The position numbers and the translations under genes were made by a program. The notes below the pieces were generated by a model. It made no database searches and was not told the origin of the DNA. It saw only the letters and a program-made list of their open reading frames with translations. A stretch of 50,992 nucleotides of DNA from the NCBI GenBank assembly GCA_902778925.1, contig CACYZN010000020.1:1-50992 (forward strand), read 5' to 3'. The first letter of the stretch is position 1. Every line of letters begins with the position of its first letter. Source of the stretch: an uncultured Bacteroidota bacterium. Lineage in GTDB: Bacteria; Bacteroidota; Bacteroidia; Bacteroidales; P3. Shown one piece after another: positions 1,061 to 49,300 of the stretch.

Positions 1061-1495
1061 CTAGATCTTAGTGTAAGTCCTAGTGTTGATTCTGGTCGTG
1101 TCACCTTTGTATTCGTATTGAACCTTCATTATAGTTCCTGTTATTTCTCCAGACAAGAAAGTGATTGTATAATTGCCGGTGCTACTATTGTGATTCTCTA
1201 CGAAATCCTGAAATGTCACTTTGCTGCCATCCTTTCTGTATTTCCCTGTCCCCATCGTGCTGGCAGATGATGTGATATGGTAATTTTCATCGGCATCATA
1301 ACTAGTTGTTTGGCCATCGAAGAATTCAATTACGTCACAGGATTTGAAATAGTACCAGTCCTCAATTTTAGTGGCCCATTTTGTTCCGTCCAAGGAGTGG
1401 TCAATATCCTTTTCATCATCTTTGTTACAGGATACGGTCAGAAGCGTGGTTGCTGCAAAAAGCAATAGAGTGACCTTTTTCATATATTTGCTCAT
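1061..1495 (-). CDS. Small secreted lipoprotein of unknown function
   Basis: A 144-residue protein with a lipoprotein signal: basic start MSKYMKK, hydrophobic core and lipobox LLTVSC with the acylated cysteine at residue 23, followed by acidic NKDDEKDID, which suits surface-exposed Bacteroidota lipoproteins. The mature part alternates short polar and hydrophobic strands (TKWATKIEDWYYF, GKYRKDGSKVTFQDF, YTITFLSGEITGTIMKVQY). This resembles the beta-rich lipocalin-like lipoproteins common in gut Bacteroidales, but no family motif is certain. An internal ATG at 1483 is an alternative start. It is a single-gene unit with its own promoter (1736-1766), a long structured leader (1550-1707) and a strong terminator. 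The leader suggests regulation after transcription starts. Function cannot be assigned from sequence. Confidence 0.8.
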   Translation of the reverse strand: MSKYMKKVTLLLFAATTLLTVSCNKDDEKDIDHSLDGTKWATKIEDWYYFKSCDVIEFFDGQTTSYDADENYHITSSASTMGTGKYRKDGSKVTFQDFVENHNSSTGNYTITFLSGEITGTIMKVQYEYKGDTTRINTRTYTKI

Positions 1496-1549
1496 CGTTT
1501 GATTTTTTTTGTAAGCTCTTCCGCACCCCGTTGAGCAAATATAATAAGA

Positions 1550-1707
1550 AGCGTGGTGCCGTTACACCATTCCTGTATGGAGGTCCTAGGAATTACCTTG
1601 TATAGAGAAGATGCAATTAGCCCACGCTGAACAGCGAAGACCATTACACAAATTCTGCTATACGTGAGTTTCCTAGGTTCCCATACACAGAACAAGCGTA
1701 AACGCTT
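1550..1707 (-). ncRNA. Structured 5' leader RNA, copy 2 (new candidate class, shared with 20291-20444)
   Basis: Read on the minus strand: a 5' hairpin AAGCG-TTTA-CGCTT (1694-1707). Then comes a long interrupted stem of three blocks: 1681-1687 with 1574-1580, 1670-1677 with 1585-1592, and 1658-1663 with 1600-1605. Inside it a short stem GTAAT/ATTGC (1643-1647, 1613-1617) encloses hairpin CGCTGTTCAGCG (1625-1636) followed by TGGGCT (1619-1624). After the long stem, CCACGCT (1550-1556) is the exact complement of AGCGTGG in the centre (1622-1628), so a pseudoknot or alternative pairing is possible. A competing hairpin TGGTG/CACCA overlaps the same 3' element. The same plan with different stem sequences occurs upstream of the LRR gene. 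The coding start is about 55 bases downstream. Confidence 0.6.
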
Positions 1708-1735
1708 CGTACGATTTCACTGCTGAAATCGGGTG

Positions 1736-1766
1736 CAAAATTACAAATAATATTCCAATTGGCAAA
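1736..1766 (-). promoter_or_regulatory. Bacteroidota promoter of the lipoprotein leader
   Basis: On the minus strand TTTG-type -33 (ending at 1763) is followed after 19 bases by TAATTTTG (1736-1743). Spacing and both boxes fit the family consensus. Transcription would begin near 1729, about 20 bases before the leader hairpin. Confidence 0.7.
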
Positions 1767-1883
1767 AAATATTTTGGCGACAGGGGAACTTTCCGCCCCT
1801 GTGGGGGATGTGTTTTGTTATGTCGGTGTCGTTAATAATCATGTCCGAAGACCTGTTTGTTAAACGGTTAAGTCGCTGATTAT

Positions 1884-19971: not shown

Positions 19972-20048
19972 CGGGGTGTGGCGCAGTTGGCTAGCGCACT
20001 TGCATGGGGTGCAAGGGGTCGAAAGTTCGAGTCTTTTCACCCCGACCA
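19972..20048 (+). tRNA. tRNA-Pro (anticodon GGG), CCA encoded
   Basis: 77 bases folding into a full cloverleaf. Acceptor CGGGGTG/CACCCCG, D stem GCGC/GCGC, anticodon stem CTTGC/GCAAG with loop ATGGGGT, T stem GAAAG/CTTTT with TTCGAGT loop, discriminator A and encoded CCA. Anticodon GGG is at 20006-20008, reading CCC. The C1-G72 first pair with A73 is the bacterial proline identity pattern. Followed at once by a rho-independent terminator. Confidence 0.95.
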
Positions 20049-20174: not shown

Positions 20175-20208
20175 TTGGTATGTAATTCAGAAAAAACATG
20201 TATATTTG
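20175..20208 (+). promoter_or_regulatory. Bacteroidota promoter of the LRR surface protein transcript
   Basis: TTG (20175-20177), 23-base spacer and TATATTTG (20201-20208). The predicted start near 20214 gives a leader of about 260 bases before the coding start at 20474. Confidence 0.65.
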
Positions 20209-20290
20209 CAGCGCGAATAGGAGTAAAGAAAAACACTACTAAACACCTGCAAACTATAGAATAGAACAAGAATAGACAATATACAGATAA

Positions 20291-20444
20291 AGCGTTTACG
20301 CTCACAGAATAGCCTTGAAATTCCACATCTAAACTATTCTCCAAGTGAAGCAGTAAACGCCTGCGATGATATCGTGGGCTTTACTTATGGAGAATAGGGT
20401 CGTGGAACACCTCAAGGCTAATAAGCAAGGTCCACGACTTTTTT
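20291..20444 (+). ncRNA. Structured 5' leader RNA, copy 1, with intrinsic terminator (attenuator candidate)
   Basis: Begins with hairpin AGCG-TTTA-CGCT (20291-20302). A long three-block stem follows: TAGCCTTGA 20310-20318 with TCAAGGCTA 20412-20420, TTCCAC 20321-20326 with GTGGAA 20402-20407, CTATTCTCC 20334-20342 with GGAGAATAG 20389-20397. Inside, GTAAA (20353-20357) pairs with TTTAC (20380-20384) around hairpin CGATGATATCG (20364-20374) and TGGGCT (20375-20380). Outside, CCACGA (20432-20437) complements TCGTGG of the centre (20372-20377). GTCGTGGA (20399-20406) and TCCACGAC (20431-20438) plus six T form an intrinsic terminator whose two halves overlap the other pairings, so states exclude each other. 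The LRR start codon lies 29 bases after the T run. Same plan as 1550-1707 on the minus strand. Confidence 0.65.
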
Positions 20445-20473: not shown

Positions 20474-23400
20474 ATGAAGAAGACTCTACTCGTTTTATTG
20501 ACTCTGCTGCTGCATTGTTCGTCTGCGTGGGGCTACAATGGCTATGTTGATTTGCCGTCTGGTCAGAGGCTTTACTACAACCACTACGCCAACAGCATGA
20601 CTGACCAATGGATAACAATCACAAGCCCTACCGATAACTATCAAAACTATTGGGAGGGGTACCTAAAGCCAGTTGGCGCTCTTGTTATTCCGGACAGTAT
20701 CACGCATAACGGAGTCAAGTGTCCGGTTACGGCCATTGGCAGTGGTGCTTTTTACGGGTGTGATGGTATTACGTCCGTTGTTATCGGCAGCAACATCACG
20801 TATATAGGAACAATGGCTTTCAGTGGATGTACGGGCTTGGTTTCGGCTGTTCTGCCCGAAGGCATTACCTCAATCAGCCAGCAACTGTTTGCTGGTTGCA
20901 CATCGTTGGCAGGAATAATCATACCAGAGAGTGTTACTTCTATTGGTTATTCTGCTTTTAATGGGTGCACTGGCCTTTCGTCTGTAACCATTCCAGATGC
21001 TGTTACAAGCATAGATAACTATGCTTTCATGAATTGTGCCTTGGATTCGCTGACAATCGGAAGAGGACTGAATAATATTGGTTCCTATATGTTTCTGGGA
21101 GACAGCTTGGTGTATCTCAACTATAACTGTTCGAAGAACTTTTTTGAGCAAATAGTGAAGGCGCGACTGGAGACGGTGATTATCGGAGACTCCGTGACAA
21201 CCATATATGCCAATGCTTTTGCGGAGGCAGGAAATCTCGCAACGATAACAATTCCGAGCCATGTAACAGTGATAGCGGACTATGCATTCAGGAACTGCAC
21301 GAGCTTAAACAGTCTTGTCATCCCCGAGAGTGTTGTCTCGATAGGGAAGGGTGCTTTCTATGGTTGCTCGGGGCTGGCAAGCATAAATATTCCAACGGGT
21401 GTTACCAGTATCCCTATAAGTACGTTCTATAACTGTACCAGTTTGACAAGCGTCAGTATACCCGACGGAGTTGCTACGATAGGAGTCAATGCTTTCTCTG
21501 ACTGCATTGGGCTACGGAAACTATCAGTTGGACGCGGGGTTACGAGTGTGGGTAATGGTAAATCATCATTCTCTAATGTTTATTTGGACACGCTTGTATA
21601 TAGCTGCAACTACAATATACTAGGTGCAATAAACAAGGACAGCCTGCGTGTGGTGGAGATTGGCGACTCGGTAACATCTATAAGCGAATATGCCTTCAGT
21701 GGCTGTATGAAGTTGACAACCATCTCGCTGCCGAATACAATAAGTTCTATCGGTGGCTCTGCTTTCAGGAACTGTAGTAGCCTGACAGATATTATTATTC
21801 CAGATGGGGTTACTTCTATTGGTAGTTTTGCCTTTAGCGGGTGTACGGGGTTGAATAGCATTGTCTTGCCCGACGCGGTAGCATATATTGAAGAGCAGGT
21901 ATTCAAAGATTGTACTGGACTGACTGATATCCATCTTGGTAGTGGCGTTACTTCGATAGAACCTGGGGCCTTCAGCGGTTGCACCAAACTAGAGACTGTG
22001 AATATTCCTGCCACATTGACGGATATTGGGCCCAATGCTTTCTACAACTGCACACAACTGGAGCCTGTAACTGTGCCCAGTGTGGTGTTGTGGATAGGAA
22101 ACGACGCCTTCTACCATGTAAAACTGATATACTATAGCGGCACTGCCACCGGTACCCCATGGGGTGCGCTGTGCGTGAATGGGTATCAGAAGGACAGCCT
22201 CTACTATGCTAACAGCTCGAAGCAGATGCTGAAGGGTGCACACCCAAAGATTGTATGTCCCACCATACCGGCCTCGGTGATTACAATTGGTGCCAATGCC
22301 TTCGAAGGATGCGACAGCATGCGCACATTGACGATACCTGTGGGAGTTACCAGTATCGGCGAGGGTGCGCTGAGGGATTGCGGTAGCCTTGAGGCGCTGA
22401 ACTATACATCCACCTCCTGCGCCAATATTGGCGGCGTTGGCATGTTCGGCGGTCGCACGAGGATAACTACGCTGAACATTGGTGATAATGTGGAGGTGAT
22501 ACCTGCAAATGCCTTTCGCGGTTGCGTGGGACTGACATCGGTGGCAATACCGGCCAGTGTCGCCTCGGTTGGTTATTATGCTTTCTACGAATGTGACAGC
22601 CTTACGAGGGTGGACTATGCTGGCTCGGTGGCCGACTGGTGCGACATAGAGTTCTACGATGCAATGTCCAACCCGATGTATTACAGCCACAATCTCTATA
22701 TTGGCAACGAACCGGTAACCTACATAGACCTGCCGAGTGGCGTGGAATGGGTGGGGCAGTATGCTTTTTACAACTGCCAGAGTGCGACTGGCACCCTGAT
22801 TGTGCCTGCCAGCGTTACCAGCATTGGACACCACGCCTTCTATGGTTGCACGGGGTTGACCGACGTGCAGTTCAACGCCGTAAACTGCACCGCTGCCGCC
22901 AATGGGAGGCAAGGGGGCAATTATTACAACAGCAACAACCTAGACTCCCCCTTCGAAGGCTGTACCGGCATCGCGACAATAACTATCGGAGGCGAGGTGA
23001 CGCAGATACCAGACTACACCTTTAAGGGTTGCAGTAATGTGGCCTCAATCGTCGTAGACCGAGCTACTCCGCCCGCTGCCTACAGCAACACCTTTACAGG
23101 TATACCGCAGTTTATACCTGTCTATGTGCCGTGCGGTAGCATGCAGAACTACTACGATAACAGCAGTTGGAGCTATTTCACCAACATCGACGACAACTGC
23201 GACGTGGCTGTTATTACCGCCACGGAGAACAACCCGTTGTGGGGTTCGGTTAGCGGCAGTGGCGAGTACGCTGTCGGTAGTGAGGTTCAACTCACGGCTA
23301 CAGCGTTCTTGGGATATATGTTCAAGCGCTGGAGTAACGGCTCAACCGACAATACTCTGAACATTACAGCCAGCACCAACATTACTTACACAGCGGTGTT

Positions 23401-24508
23401 TGCAGATGCTCCTATTATCGATACCATCAATGTGTACGACACCATTTATAGCAATGTGCTGGTATACGACACCATGCATGTGATGGACACCACCATAGTG
23501 TATGATACTGCTGATGTGCCTGTAATAGTCTACGACACCACTATGATTCCGATAACTTCATACGATACAACAATATTGCCAGTAATAACATATGATACTA
23601 CAGTTGCGCCAGTATACGATACTACCATAGTGTACGACACGGTCGAAGTGGCAGTAATAATATATGACACCACTGTATTACCAATAACAACATACGATAC
23701 AACAATAGTGCCTGAAATAATATATGATACTGCCGTTGTGCCGGTCTACGACACCATGCAGGTGATAGATACTACCATAGTGTACGACACGGCCGAAGTA
23801 GTGGTGATATTCTACGACACCACTATCTTGCCAATAACTACATACGATACAACAGTAGTTTCAGTAATAACAAATGATACTACCGTTGTGCTGGTCTACG
23901 ACACCGTGCAGGTGATAGACACTACAATAGTGTACGACACGGCCGAAGTAGCGGTGATATTCTACGACACCACTATTTCTTCAATAACATTGTATGACAC
24001 AACAGTAGTGCATGATACTACCGTTGTGCCAGTTTACGACACCACAGTGGTATCAGTAACGGCATTTGATACAACAATGGTTGCCATAACGGTATATGAT
24101 AGTACGCTTCTGCCTATTCATGACACAATAATACAGACCGAGACTGTTGTTGATACATTGACAGAAATTGTGATTGATACAATGACAGTGTCAGATACCA
24201 TTTGGCTGACGCAGTACGATACGGTTTGGCTGCACGACACAGTGCATGTGCACGACACCATATATGTGCCGCAGGATGGCATAGAAGACGTTGGGGAAGC
24301 TGCCTCCAAGATCTATTCAAGCAATGGCCAGATTGTGGTCGAGGGTATCTATGGCGTTGATGTGCATATATACGACGTGGTGGGACGCCAGATTGAGGCA
24401 GTCAAGCGACCGGACAGCCAGACAATTCGGTTCAATGTACCTTCGACAGGCACCTACATGGTAAAAATAGGCAATGCCCCGGCCCGAAGGATAGTCGTAG
24501 TAAGGTGA
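20474..24508 (+). CDS. BspA-like leucine-rich-repeat surface protein with T9SS C-terminal domain
   Basis: 1344 residues from ATG 20474, where a signal peptide begins (MKKTLLVLLTLLLHCSSAWG); the longer upstream frame overlaps the leader terminator and was rejected. Residues about 70-900 are LRR_5/BspA repeats of the form ITSIGxxAFxGCTGLTSVTIPDSV. About 910-980 resembles the divergent InlB B-repeat (NPLWGSVSGSGEYAVGSEVQLTATA, FKRWSNGSTDN). About 982-1265 is a Tyr-Asp-Thr-rich stalk (VYDTTIVYDTAEV) made of DNA repeats of 132, 150 and 150 bp. The last 75 residues (IYSSNGQIVVEGIYGVDVHIYDVVGRQIEAV...YMVKIGNAPARRIVVVR) fit a type-A T9SS sorting domain. It is therefore probably exported by T9SS and surface-anchored as an adhesin. 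Its AGG-TGA end coincides with a heptamer array. Confidence 0.92.
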   Translation: MKKTLLVLLTLLLHCSSAWGYNGYVDLPSGQRLYYNHYANSMTDQWITITSPTDNYQNYWEGYLKPVGALVIPDSITHNGVKCPVTAIGSGAFYGCDGITSVVIGSNITYIGTMAFSGCTGLVSAVLPEGITSISQQLFAGCTSLAGIIIPESVTSIGYSAFNGCTGLSSVTIPDAVTSIDNYAFMNCALDSLTIGRGLNNIGSYMFLGDSLVYLNYNCSKNFFEQIVKARLETVIIGDSVTTIYANAFAEAGNLATITIPSHVTVIADYAFRNCTSLNSLVIPESVVSIGKGAFYGCSGLASINIPTGVTSIPISTFYNCTSLTSVSIPDGVATIGVNAFSDCIGLRKLSVGRGVTSVGNGKSSFSNVYLDTLVYSCNYNILGAINKDSLRVVEIGDSVTSISEYAFSGCMKLTTISLPNTISSIGGSAFRNCSSLTDIIIPDGVTSIGSFAFSGCTGLNSIVLPDAVAYIEEQVFKDCTGLTDIHLGSGVTSIEPGAFSGCTKLETVNIPATLTDIGPNAFYNCTQLEPVTVPSVVLWIGNDAFYHVKLIYYSGTATGTPWGALCVNGYQKDSLYYANSSKQMLKGAHPKIVCPTIPASVITIGANAFEGCDSMRTLTIPVGVTSIGEGALRDCGSLEALNYTSTSCANIGGVGMFGGRTRITTLNIGDNVEVIPANAFRGCVGLTSVAIPASVASVGYYAFYECDSLTRVDYAGSVADWCDIEFYDAMSNPMYYSHNLYIGNEPVTYIDLPSGVEWVGQYAFYNCQSATGTLIVPASVTSIGHHAFYGCTGLTDVQFNAVNCTAAANGRQGGNYYNSNNLDSPFEGCTGIATITIGGEVTQIPDYTFKGCSNVASIVVDRATPPAAYSNTFTGIPQFIPVYVPCGSMQNYYDNSSWSYFTNIDDNCDVAVITATENNPLWGSVSGSGEYAVGSEVQLTATAFLGYMFKRWSNGSTDNTLNITASTNITYTAVFADAPIIDTINVYDTIYSNVLVYDTMHVMDTTIVYDTADVPVIVYDTTMIPITSYDTTILPVITYDTTVAPVYDTTIVYDTVEVAVIIYDTTVLPITTYDTTIVPEIIYDTAVVPVYDTMQVIDTTIVYDTAEVVVIFYDTTILPITTYDTTVVSVITNDTTVVLVYDTVQVIDTTIVYDTAEVAVIFYDTTISSITLYDTTVVHDTTVVPVYDTTVVSVTAFDTTMVAITVYDSTLLPIHDTIIQTETVVDTLTEIVIDTMTVSDTIWLTQYDTVWLHDTVHVHDTIYVPQDGIEDVGEAASKIYSSNGQIVVEGIYGVDVHIYDVVGRQIEAVKRPDSQTIRFNVPSTGTYMVKIGNAPARRIVVVR
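23419..24270 (+). repeat. Repeats encoding the YDTT stalk of the LRR protein
   Basis: The segment with ACTACCATAG-TGTACGAC recurs at 23489, 23621, 23771 and 23921, giving periods of 132, 150 and 150 bp (44, 50 and 50 codons). Shorter YDTT-encoding units recur within each. Such DNA is prone to copy-number change in frame. Confidence 0.85.
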
Positions 24509-46304: not shown

Positions 46305-49300
46305 TTTCGCTTCTTTTCTTGTGTCGACGTCGATTTCTTCTTGCGGCGGAACAGGTCGCCCCAGCGGTCGAAGTCTTTGGTCAGCTTCAGGCCCACGCCC
46401 TGCTTGTAGGGCAGGTCCATGCGGGTGTAGTCGTTTGTGTTGGTGCGGTTGTAGGCGTACAGGTGCACCAGAGGGCTGAGGCGGTAGCCGAGCAGTGCGT
46501 CGATGACGGTGCCGCCAGTGTTGCTGGCCTCCAGCTCGCGGCTCTCGCCGCCGTAGCCCAGAGTGCTTTCGATATACCAGCGGCCCCAGTCCTTGCTGAT
46601 GTTCAGGTCGAGCTGCTGGTTGGTCATCTCGGTGGCGGCGCGGTAGTCGACGTTTATGTCCACTATGTTCACCATGTCGGCCATCATGCCGCCCAGGGTC
46701 GAGGCTATGCTGCCCAGACCGCTGGCGGCGGGGTTGCCCTGGTCGGTGCCCGAGACGTTGTAGAAGTTGCCCGACACCAGTAGCGACAAGGTCTGGTTCA
46801 GCATGTCGCGCTCGCTGTTGCGGTCTATGTATGCAAACACCTCGTCTTCCACGCTCTGGTCGGCGCCGGGCAGACGCAGGTCGAAGCTTATGGTGGGGTC
46901 TTGCAGGGTGCCGCTCACGGCTATCACGTTCTCCACCTGTATGTACTTCTGCGTGTTGTCGAGGGTCGAGAGGCTGCCCGTCAGTGTCGAGAGATTGACG
47001 CGCTGCGAGTACACAGCCCGCATATCGAACCGCGCGTCGGGCACCGACCCCTGGAAGCCGAGGCTGCTGCCGCTCTCGAGGGTGAAGTTCTTGTCGACCA
47101 CCGAAAGAAGGCTCACCTTCATGGTGCCGTTGGTGATTTCGTAGCTTCCGAGCACCTGGGGCGTCTGCACGCCGTCGTAGTTCATGTGCAGGTCGCCGGT
47201 GCCGGTGGCGCCAACCGTCACGGCCACGCCGGTGAAGTCCATGGGTATGTTCAGCTTTACGTCGGGGTTGATGCTGAGGTCGAGCTCCACGTTGATGCCG
47301 CTCCGGTTGCTGCGCGAGGCGTCCTGCTCGCGAGTGTCGGCGGGTCTGTCGTCGACAAAGGTGATGTAGTTCTGGGTCTTCACCTGCCGCTGCTCGTTGA
47401 CGGGTACCGAGAGCGAGCTGCCCGGCCTTGTGGTGGCCGCTACCTTGATGTTCAGGTCGTCGAGCTTGCCTCGCACAGTGCCACGGGCCGAGGCCAGCAG
47501 TGTGCCGAAGAAGCTGTCGCCATAGGGCAAGTCGAGCATCAGCAGGTTGTCTGTCTGCACGCCGAGGTCGAGTGTGGCGTCACTCAGGTCGCTGTACCTG
47601 ATGGCGCCGTCGAGGTAGGCTATGTTGCCGCGCGGGTCGAGCACCTTGAAGCGGTCCAGGCGCACTGTGTTGCTCGCAAAGCGTATGCTGTCCGAGAAGT
47701 AGTAGGTTACACCTGTTGCGTCCACCTTCAAGGCTCCGTTCTCCACCAGCGCCTCGCCCACTACCACGGGCGCCGCGGTGGTGCCTCCGATGTCGAAGTT
47801 GCCGTGCAGCATGCCTTCGAAGCGGCTGGTGAAGGCTGTCATGAACGGCGCCGCCAGCGAAAGGTCGAAGCTGTCGAAGTCGACTGCGAAGTTCAATCCT
47901 GGGTCCTCCTTGCCTAGGTCGAGCCAGCCTTGGGCGGCCAGCTGGTCGCTACGCAGCTGCAGGTTGAGGGTGTTTAGTTCGGCGTTCCAGTTGCTTCGCA
48001 CCGCCACGTCGCCCAGCGCCTGCCGGTTGATGTGGCAGTCGCCTACGGTGAGGTTGGCGTTGAAGTAGGGTGTCTCGGCGAGGCCGTAGAGGTTGAAGTG
48101 GCCGTCGACCTGTCCCGTGATGTCGATGGCAGCACTCTGGGCTAGCAGCCGGCCGGGACCGCCTATGTCGAAGTGGTCGAAGCGCAACTCCACGCAGTCG
48201 CTTGGCTTGCGCTGCAGGCGCACGGCGGCCTCTATCTTCTGTCCGGCGCTGTGCATCTCTATGCCGCTTCCGCTCAGGGTGAGGTATTTGTTGCGCTCGA
48301 TGGCGAGGCTGTCGATGGCAAGGGTCCAGGGGGTGCTGTCTACTACGAAGTGCGACCGCTCGACGTCGATCAGTCCTTCCTGCAGCTTGAGCATCAGGTC
48401 GCCCCGGCTTGTGCTGGTGGCGTCGCCCCACTTCAGTCCTACGATGGCGCGGCGACTGTTGCTGTTCAGCGTGAGACCGGCGTCGCTTAGCAGTTCGAGC
48501 TTCCCGATGGTGGCGGTCTGGGTCTCCAACTCCACCACGTAGGCTTCGCTGGCCAGGCGGCTGCTCAAGCCTATGTCGTGCAGCGCCAGGTTGCCCATGC
48601 GCACTGAGTCGCTGCGCAGCACGGTCTTGAGCAGTTCGGCGCTGTTGTAGCTGCCGCTGATGCGGGTGCCTCGTGCCAGGACGACGCCGTCGGCGACGCT
48701 GCGCAGGAAGCGGCCGTCGTCGGTCCACTGGGCGTTGAAGTGCAGCGTGTTGTCGGCTATGGATTCCAGTTCCTGGGGGGTGAGTGGCTGTGCCACCTGC
48801 AGCTCGGCCGGCAGGGCGGTGGCCAGCAGGTGCTGTATCATGAGCGGCAGGTTGGCGTAGCTGAAGGTGCCGTAGGCCGTGGCTACCATCGGGTCGCTGT
48901 CGAGCCTCAGGGTCTTCTGCTGCCCGTCGGCGTCGACGTCGAGCCTCACCTCGTGCAGGTGCAGCGGCCCCACGTGGGTGTTGCGTGCCACCACGCTGCC
49001 GCTCAGGGCGTCGATGTCGTTGCCGGTGGCGGTGGCGGCTATGCGGGTGCCGATGGTGGAATACTTCTCGGACGTGAGCTTGAAGGCGGCGCCTTCGAGG
49101 CGGTCCACCCGTAGGTCGGCGCTGTAGCGGTTCAGGCTGTCGCCCAGGTCGGCGGCGCAGGCCAGGTCGAACTGCAGCAGGCTGTCGGTCGATGTGGCTT
49201 CGACGTCGGCATGGCCGCCTGCAAGTTTTATGTCGATATCGATGGGCATCAGCCGGTTGCCGCGCACCACGCTGTTGGTTAGCTCGACGCGGGCTGTGCC

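Follow-up and report, generated by a model that had tools for sequence, protein, structure and literature searches.

A candidate class of structured 5' leader RNAs ahead of exchanged genes in Bacteroidia

Two leaders in the window

The window, the whole stretch of 50,992 nucleotides that was analysed here, comes from an uncultured Bacteroidota bacterium and carries two elements, A on the minus strand and B on the plus strand. A sequence-only reading had taken both for structured leader RNAs, each placed behind a Bacteroidota-type promoter (TAATTTTG in A, TATATTTG in B) and ahead of an exported protein, and direct reading of the sequence bears this out for the strands, the promoters and the genes. 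The features of element A are as follows.

1736..1769, minus strand: promoter of A, TTTTTTGCC at 1769-1761 and TAATTTTG at 1743-1736, read directly
1712..1731, minus strand: hairpin CGATTTCAGCAGTGAAATCG, lying 5' of the core and past the promoter (from the sequence and the 29-copy alignment; present in same-genus copies)
1548..1708, minus strand: type-A leader RNA core of 161 nt (included in alignment A1 and model R1; class covariation)
1681..1686, minus strand: P1 5' strand GTATGG, with partner CCATAC at 1580-1575 (class covariation of P1)
1670..1677, minus strand: P2 5' strand CCTAGGAA, with partner TTCCTAGG at 1592-1585 (class covariation of P2)
1658..1663, minus strand: P3 5' strand GTATAG, with partner CTATAC at 1605-1600 (class covariation of P3)
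1641..1649, minus strand: apical GTGTAATGG, which pairs with the 5' strand in PK1 (PK1 support at class level)
1619..1627, minus strand: centre GCGTGGGCT, PK2 partner of CCACGC (PK2 covariation in copies found by model or similarity)
1548..1561, minus strand: 3' strand, with segment X CGGCACC at 1561-1555, CCACGC at 1556-1551, and CTTC closing with the 5' GAAG (covariation)
1515..1536, minus strand: H2 hairpin GCTC-AACGGGGTGCGGAA-GAGC, whose loop GGTGC pairs with GCACC of X to form PK3 (duplex test of X against the downstream region, hairpin list)
1061..1495, minus strand: cargo gene of A, a predicted lipoprotein of 144 aa starting at 1495 (lipobox by eye)

Element A had been placed at 1550-1707; the element stands but its ends do not, as the core runs from 1548 to 1708 and the unit extends to the start codon at 1495. 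PK1 is weak in element A itself, where the 5' strand is a TTTACGC variant. The 144-aa cargo protein gave no match in a Pfam search. The features of element B are these.

20201..20208, plus strand: -7 element TATATTTG of B (sequence)
20291..20444, plus strand: core of the leader RNA, type B, with U-run (matches of models R2 and R1)
20310..20318, plus strand: P1 5' strand TAGCCTTGA, with partner TCAAGGCTA at 20412-20420 (sequence)
20321..20327, plus strand: P2 5' strand TTCCACA, with partner inside TCGTGGAA at 20400-20407 (sequence)
20334..20342, plus strand: P3 5' strand CTATTCTCC, with partner GGAGAATAG at 20389-20397 (sequence)
20353..20360, plus strand: GTAAACGC, PK1 partner of GCGTTTAC at 20292-20299 (sequence)
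20372..20379, plus strand: centre TCGTGGGC, pairing in PK2 with the CCACGA of 20431-20444 (sequence; PK2 covariation)
20474..24508, plus strand: cargo gene of B, an exported BspA-type leucine-rich-repeat protein of 1344 aa (Pfam LRR_5, E=1.1e-163)

A and B have AGCGTTTACGCT in common, and AAGCGTTTACGCT occurs at just these two places in the genome; the three-block stem, the small hairpin, TGGGCT and the 3' CCACG element that made up the proposed common plan could likewise all be located by mapping. In element B neither H2 nor a pairing of the start region is evident. A tRNA gene (19972-20045) lies about 250 bases ahead of element B and its large BspA-type gene.

Spread and conserved structure of the class

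Relatives of A and of B were found by DNA similarity in genomes of the same genus. Twenty-nine type-A copies, including element A, make up alignment A1, on which RNAalifold gave 39 pairs with double changes in 18, and from which model R1 was built; since element A sits in the training set, its R1 score (E=5.7e-45) is true by construction. Searches for further homologs returned abundant copies across the family, the order and the phylum. R1 matched 115 of 149 sampled family genomes, in 11 of 12 genera (E<=0.01), 32 of 119 sampled genomes of the order (E<=0.001) and 9 of 247 of the phylum (E<=1e-4), all of these being samples of larger groups that include the window's own genome. Copy numbers are lower bounds, because only part of the candidates in each genome was scored; the highest number in a single genome (G126) was 28 R1 matches at E<=1. 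Two copies do lie in the window, as had been noted, but the window's genome holds about nine such places rather than two (seven from R1 at E<=1 and three from R2 at E<=0.001, with one in common), six of these being full-length at E<=2e-5. At least 119 stretches of named genomes fit a sequence pattern, with hosts such as Bacteroides gallinarum, Phocaeicola coprophilus, P. sartorii, Parabacteroides faecis, Butyricimonas synergistica and Leyella lascolaii, and so do 3 stretches of viral contigs.

Model R2 was built from 16 type-B copies, element B among them, and had matches at E<=0.001 in 58 of the 101 family genomes searched; its match to element B (20291-20443, E=6.2e-26) is one to a member of its own training set. 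No B sequence was used in training R1, which, when run without filters, recovers element B over its whole length and with correct ends (20289-20441, E=0.014), in a tie with a chance-like place at 46997-47038. Default filters left R1 with 4 of the 13 B-type loci, at E values from 3.7e-6 to 4.6e-4 and without element B; R1 also misses typical B copies, for instance L300 and L309. Both models were run on 61 loci, of which R1 matched 52, R2 31 and both 22, so that most were matched by one model only; at the jointly matched loci the ends agree within a few bases, and one such locus (L313) was matched almost equally by both (R1 1.7e-12, R2 8.3e-13). Types A and B can be regarded as one class, joined by the intermediates that both models match.

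The class had not been recognised from the letters alone, and a search of both elements in Rfam 15 also gave no matching family: at gathering thresholds the sole match in the whole window was the tRNA at 19972-20045, and permissive searches with the elements gave best values of E=3.9 and E=0.84, both to unrelated families. Structured RNAs of the same phylum include 6S-flavo, Bacteroidales-1, Bacteroides-1, Bacteroid-trp, Flavo-1 and the SAM-II long loops (named in PMC2864571); none of these matched the elements with cmscan, a comparison that covers motifs with an Rfam number, while that paper shows two, Bacteroides-2 and the GUCCY-hairpin, without one. The rod shape suggested 6S RNA, a reading we reject because the element stands ahead of genes, occurs in multiple copies and lacks an Rfam 6S match. 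Searches of an open-access library, judged by titles and opening abstract lines, with PMC7366714, PMC2864571 and PMC5704250 consulted as passages, brought up no paper that describes the element, which is weak evidence of absence as subscription papers and bioRxiv were mostly outside its reach.

The proposal that RNA structure is selected, with compensatory changes in the stems, is upheld by very strong covariation across the class. A 41-pair structure was scored on 100 copies (97 distinct), which are the first of 136 A3 matches, 36 having been dropped (35 on the opposite strand and one weak, L150:489-678). Of its 3958 cells 96.1% are paired, versus 80.2% in shuffles and 37.7-50.1% in slid versions, and both sides have changed in 701 cells versus 206 in shuffles. 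Two of the five covariation measures are barely above the shuffles, namely the pairs with double changes (22 versus 19.2, with 15 of 500 shuffles as high) and the pair types (71 versus 68.4, with 83 of 500 as high). The loci of A3 and A6 were fetched almost wholly with a pattern in which P0, PK2 and some of the PK1 5' strand are fixed, so these are invariant or nearly so in the 41-pair test.

Own-versus-cross duplex energy tests, made on 79 of the 100 copies with redundant ones dropped, gave z -30.4 for P1 (98.5% of cells paired, double changes at 6 of 6 pairs), z -13.6 for P2 (99.4% paired, double changes at 4 of 8 pairs) and z -31.8 for P3 (93.3% paired, double changes at 6 of 6 pairs), with control windows at z -0.2, -1.5 and +1.1; at most pairs of P1 and P3 all four Watson-Crick types occur. 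Weaker values were obtained for P1b (z -8.2), the inner stem (z -5.5), the apical hairpin (z -5.0) and PK1 (z -3.8 in the 79 copies and z -6.5 in a second test), the last with 96.3% of cells paired and many U-A/U-G exchanges. The comparison of copies shows a covarying, predicted rod of three blocks, P1-P2-P3, within a core of about 160 nt. By the same kind of evidence, the 5' strand is shown to pair with the apex (PK1 and P1b) and the apical GUGG with the 3' CCAC (PK2).

PK2 is near-invariant in the pattern-fetched set, where it does no better than cross-pairings (z +2.2). The centre pairing had been seen to covary between A and B (GCGTGG with CCACGC, TCGTGG with CCACGA), and it does so more widely: among copies found by model or similarity, the outer pair in the 71 of 90 that could be read, taking the best-pairing of several possible centres, is G-C in 30, U-A in 24, A-U in 2, G-U in 6 and a U-U mismatch in 9. 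The 19 uncounted copies are those whose motifs the search expression did not locate; one opposite-strand row was dropped, and the inner pairs are partly fixed by that expression. The TTTA-type 5' hairpin, presented as part of the common plan, is present in all 16 type-B copies, a set cut out with a motif nearly requiring that hairpin, but in only 6 of the 29 aligned type-A copies. Most type-A copies carry GCGTTATGC or GCGTTATAC in its place, both of which can pair with the apex.

A further stem, P4, was rejected for type A (z -0.5), where segment 53-60 pairs with the 5' strand, as P1b. In A2 the variable stems are misaligned and for that reason absent from its RNAalifold structure, and the short inner helices of R1 are partly doubtful. 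Some helices could be alternative states, since PK1 and P1b may not be able to coexist sterically with the rod. In many copies the P2 3' strand is flanked by AGGU and ACCU (A3 consensus positions 112-116 and 126-129; z -3.5), which by eye appear to covary in some (AGGC/GCCU in L241); these may form a small helix or belong to an alternative state. With its homologs, its covariation and the lack of an Rfam match, the reading of the elements as a new class of structured leader RNA is supported.

Signals around the start codon

The sequence-only reading did not include the hairpin and pairing that precede the start codon, the class-wide spread, the mobile-element context or the exchange of genes. 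The downstream, ORF and promoter statistics that follow rest on 125 non-redundant of 171 copies. Directly upstream of the core the copies show a conserved promoter, predicted from the motif TAnnTTTG: 101 of 125 copies have it at about -60 to -20, versus 4.05 by chance as estimated by mononucleotide shuffling of a stretch that was slightly shorter. An ATG-started ORF follows the core on the same strand in 120 of 125, its start at a median of 55 nt (middle half 50-74), a figure without a chance control. Judged by sequence, this placement, together with a conserved secondary structure that covaries, is that of a cis-regulatory leader.

Between the core and the ORF stands H2, whose loop is the partner of segment X, a strand that often reads CAGYRCC; H2 lies some 8-20 nt past the core and ends at a median of 16 nt before the ATG. 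The energy of X against the downstream 75 nt is -8.72 kcal/mol in own and -6.59 kcal/mol in cross-pairings (z -12.6, n=125). A hairpin of the H2 form can be found in 118 of 125 own versus 113-119 of 125 mismatched pairings, and the score alone separates the two (-15.0 own versus -12.4 to -13.0 mismatched). These comparisons show that PK3, the predicted pairing of X with the H2 loop, holds for type A and its relatives.

Of 12 type-B leaders found, 9 are linked to DNA methylase genes, and in these the start region (ATGCC...CAAC) is complementary to the P3 3' strand. The pairing energy is -16.12 kcal/mol in own and -11.4 kcal/mol in cross-pairings, with 1 of 5000 permutations as good (n=9, the nine being related and two having identical segments). 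The pairing is supported for the nine as a set, with the other three B leaders, element B included, and type A lying outside it. By eye the complementarity is seen at L041, L046, L047, L048, L050, L296, L300 and L304, where the early codons before the methylase vary together with the RNA pairing, and it is not evident at L043, which is methylase-linked too.

We think it reasonably probable that A and B belong to a class of cis-acting structured 5' leader RNAs of Bacteroidia, apparently not described before, that act as a translational switch. Such a switch would be the best-supported function, as the 3' part of the leader lies at the ribosome landing site and single strands have competing partners; the methylase-linked B leaders are the strongest single argument for it. 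In methylase-linked type B, the P3 3' strand would in one state pair with its P3 partner, leaving the start codon free, and in the other state pair with the start region, blocking it. In type A the analogous control site may be H2 and X just ahead of the start. A signal for or against the compact fold, which could be a metabolite, a protein or a physical state, would then set the translation of whichever gene is plugged in, and promoter and leader together would form an expression socket for acquired genes.

Regulation at the level of transcription is a possible but clearly less likely reading. A 3' hairpin of the core and the U-rich tract would then form an intrinsic terminator competing with the compact fold, as in a transcriptional riboswitch or attenuator. 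The tract does lie directly past the core, with a T fraction of 0.50-0.74 at its first 8 positions (n=125), element B closes with TTTTTT, and in type B the CCACGA before the U-run can take the P2 3' strand as its partner (RNAalifold columns 121-126/154-159). However, a T-run of at least 4 within the first 10 nt occurs in 57 of 125 copies and is lacking in 68, and a transcription terminator does not appear to be a general feature; the local 3' hairpin, P5, is without covariation (z -1.2), and H2, whose pairing with X is strongly supported, sits downstream of the U tract.

Different genes behind a conserved leader

The genes behind the leaders are unrelated to one another. Of the 120 ORFs, 118 are at least 60 aa long, and 116 of these were aligned and scanned; 51 Pfam families were matched among them, the commonest in 4 proteins, and a riboswitch-type tie to one gene family or pathway was not found. 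By a crude rule for N-termini, 28 of the 120 are lipoprotein-like, 62 otherwise hydrophobic and 30 neither, and 90 would be exported. PADLOC gave just 5 weak single matches to defence genes among the 116 proteins, and in PHROGs 65 families of phage proteins were matched, the commonest among the matches listed in 5 of 116.

This want of a common function would suit a constitutive module, in which promoter and stable 5' structure shield the mRNA and give a clean ribosome site with nothing being sensed. Folded 5' leaders can stabilise mRNAs. We hold this reading to be unlikely, as independent pseudoknots, competing pairings and a possible occlusion of the start codon exceed what stability needs.

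Comparison of 177 loci, 169 of them with a cargo ORF, shows that the leader stays at its genomic site while the accessory genes that follow it, unrelated to one another, change. Where the upstream flank is the same and the cargo differs (92 pairs), the median core identity is 0.901, versus 0.914 where flank and cargo are both the same (8 pairs), 0.737 where the same cargo stands at a different site (191 pairs) and 0.696 where neither is shared (737 sampled). In 90 of the 92 pairs, 2 having no measurable left segment, the left homology ends between the core end and the ATG of the first locus in 82, beyond it in 7 and before the core end in 1; the 90 pairs are not independent, since 73 come from a site next to pheT. 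That site has 13 loci with 8 single-linkage cargo families (pheT and its neighbours being named by eye from translations), and its left homology ends mostly 32-65 nt past the core, near the start codons and around H2, and for a few pairs at 132-143; the right end varies. At some other sites the homology ends right at the core edge.

Leaders lie on chromosomes and also on mobile DNA. By DNA similarity the element was found in 7 of 72,556 plasmid records and 1 of 50,697 phage records. On the Bacteroides uniformis plasmid pBUN1 (L283:4603-7128) a MobV relaxase gene is followed by a leader and a class A beta-lactamase (MUN-1), on plasmid L281 the leader precedes a DarT-domain protein, and on the other plasmids it precedes unassigned genes. 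Of 122 named or viral loci, 8 (L110, L150, L175, L186, L190, L211, L212 and L213) have a MobV homologue, or a homologue of the Pfam-negative gene that stands in the same place on L281, ending about 90-140 nt upstream; L190 matches only the L281 gene. Homologues of one plasmid integrase occur at 7 of 122 loci. L212 and L213, two of the three contigs filed as viral, have homologues of integrase, primase, toprim and MobV ahead of the leader and look like mobilizable elements. Carriage by phages has weak support, since the lone phage record is unannotated and L212 and L213 resemble mobilizable elements rather than phages.

The constant leader with its changing gene, the position of the homology ends, the several leaders per genome, the tandem leader-gene arrays, the plasmid records and the MobV-like or L281-like gene just upstream in the 8 loci would all be expected of selection at the level of DNA, the element serving also or mainly as a folded single-stranded recombination site, similar to attC, at whose 3' edge genes are exchanged. 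The long stems point the same way, as P1-P3 have 1956 Watson-Crick cells, 20 G.T, 14 A.C and 93 other mismatches, which is 1% G.U and no strand bias; 14 tRNAs from the window and the loci have 19 G.T and 0 A.C in 311 pairs. The near absence of G.U in P1-P3 is puzzling, being unusual for an ordinary RNA helix. We nevertheless regard a DNA site as improbable. In PK1 several pairs alternate between U-A and U-G (55/40 and 63/31 at two of them), and PK3 has 59 G.T versus 16 A.C, or 8% G.U, in the 115 of 125 copies that keep at least 5 of 7 Watson-Crick pairs; these pairings tolerate G.U on the sense strand and not A.C, which is a signature of RNA. A conserved promoter and a conserved spacing to the ATG would be superfluous for a DNA site, most of the exchange pairs come from one site, and the plasmid integrase has few homologues near the loci. 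K-mer enrichment over 150 nt at 155 loci found no shared motif after the cargo, and no integron-type cassette with recombination sites at both ends was found in these loci by the same means. Least likely of all seems a dual purpose, in which the folded nucleic acid would mark the point of gene exchange, perhaps as single-stranded DNA during relaxase-mediated transfer, and then as RNA gate the translation of the gene that has landed.

In integrons, with their attC and attI sites, genes are exchanged at the edge of a structured repeat that is present in many copies, and structured elements and genes form arrays. The leaders resemble this in the exchange of genes at their edge, in their many copies and in their arrays of element and gene. 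Unlike integron sites, each element has its own promoter, PK1 and PK3 tolerate G.U on the sense strand, and no right-end site was found, the integrase comparison covering homologues of one plasmid integrase. The leaders also compare with cis-regulatory leader RNAs such as the orphan riboswitch candidates (Weinberg et al. 2010, PMC2864571), with which they share a covarying, pseudoknotted 5' leader, an upstream promoter, a 3' end at the translation start and competing pairings. They differ from those candidates in lacking an Rfam match, in a cargo that spans no common pathway, in having several to many copies per genome with swapped cargo, and in stems almost without G.U.

With this element, a bacterial class that is central in the gut and the rumen gains a large class of structured RNA, and the element would be one common control handle for many accessory genes of mostly unassigned function. 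The pattern of a fixed leader and a changing gene raises a testable question, namely how Bacteroidia plug foreign genes into a regulated position, and the scarcity of G.U in the long stems bears on whether selection acts at the level of RNA or DNA. If the dual purpose were true, Bacteroidia would have an expression-coupled platform for gene swapping, integron-like, with a site that is also the regulator.

Several minor features were seen at individual loci. Two or three leaders in the same direction stand on each of four stretches (L285, L286, L287 and L288), most with their own gene or gene pair. Directly upstream of some leaders (L293, L297) are genes that we take, by eye, to be phage antirepressors of the BRO/KilA-N type. 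Repeats of about 40-45 nt, around TGATTTTGAAAATGGC and AAAATGAGTGTCGCAAG, follow some of the cargo at the pheT site, for example at L013, L015, L016 and L063.
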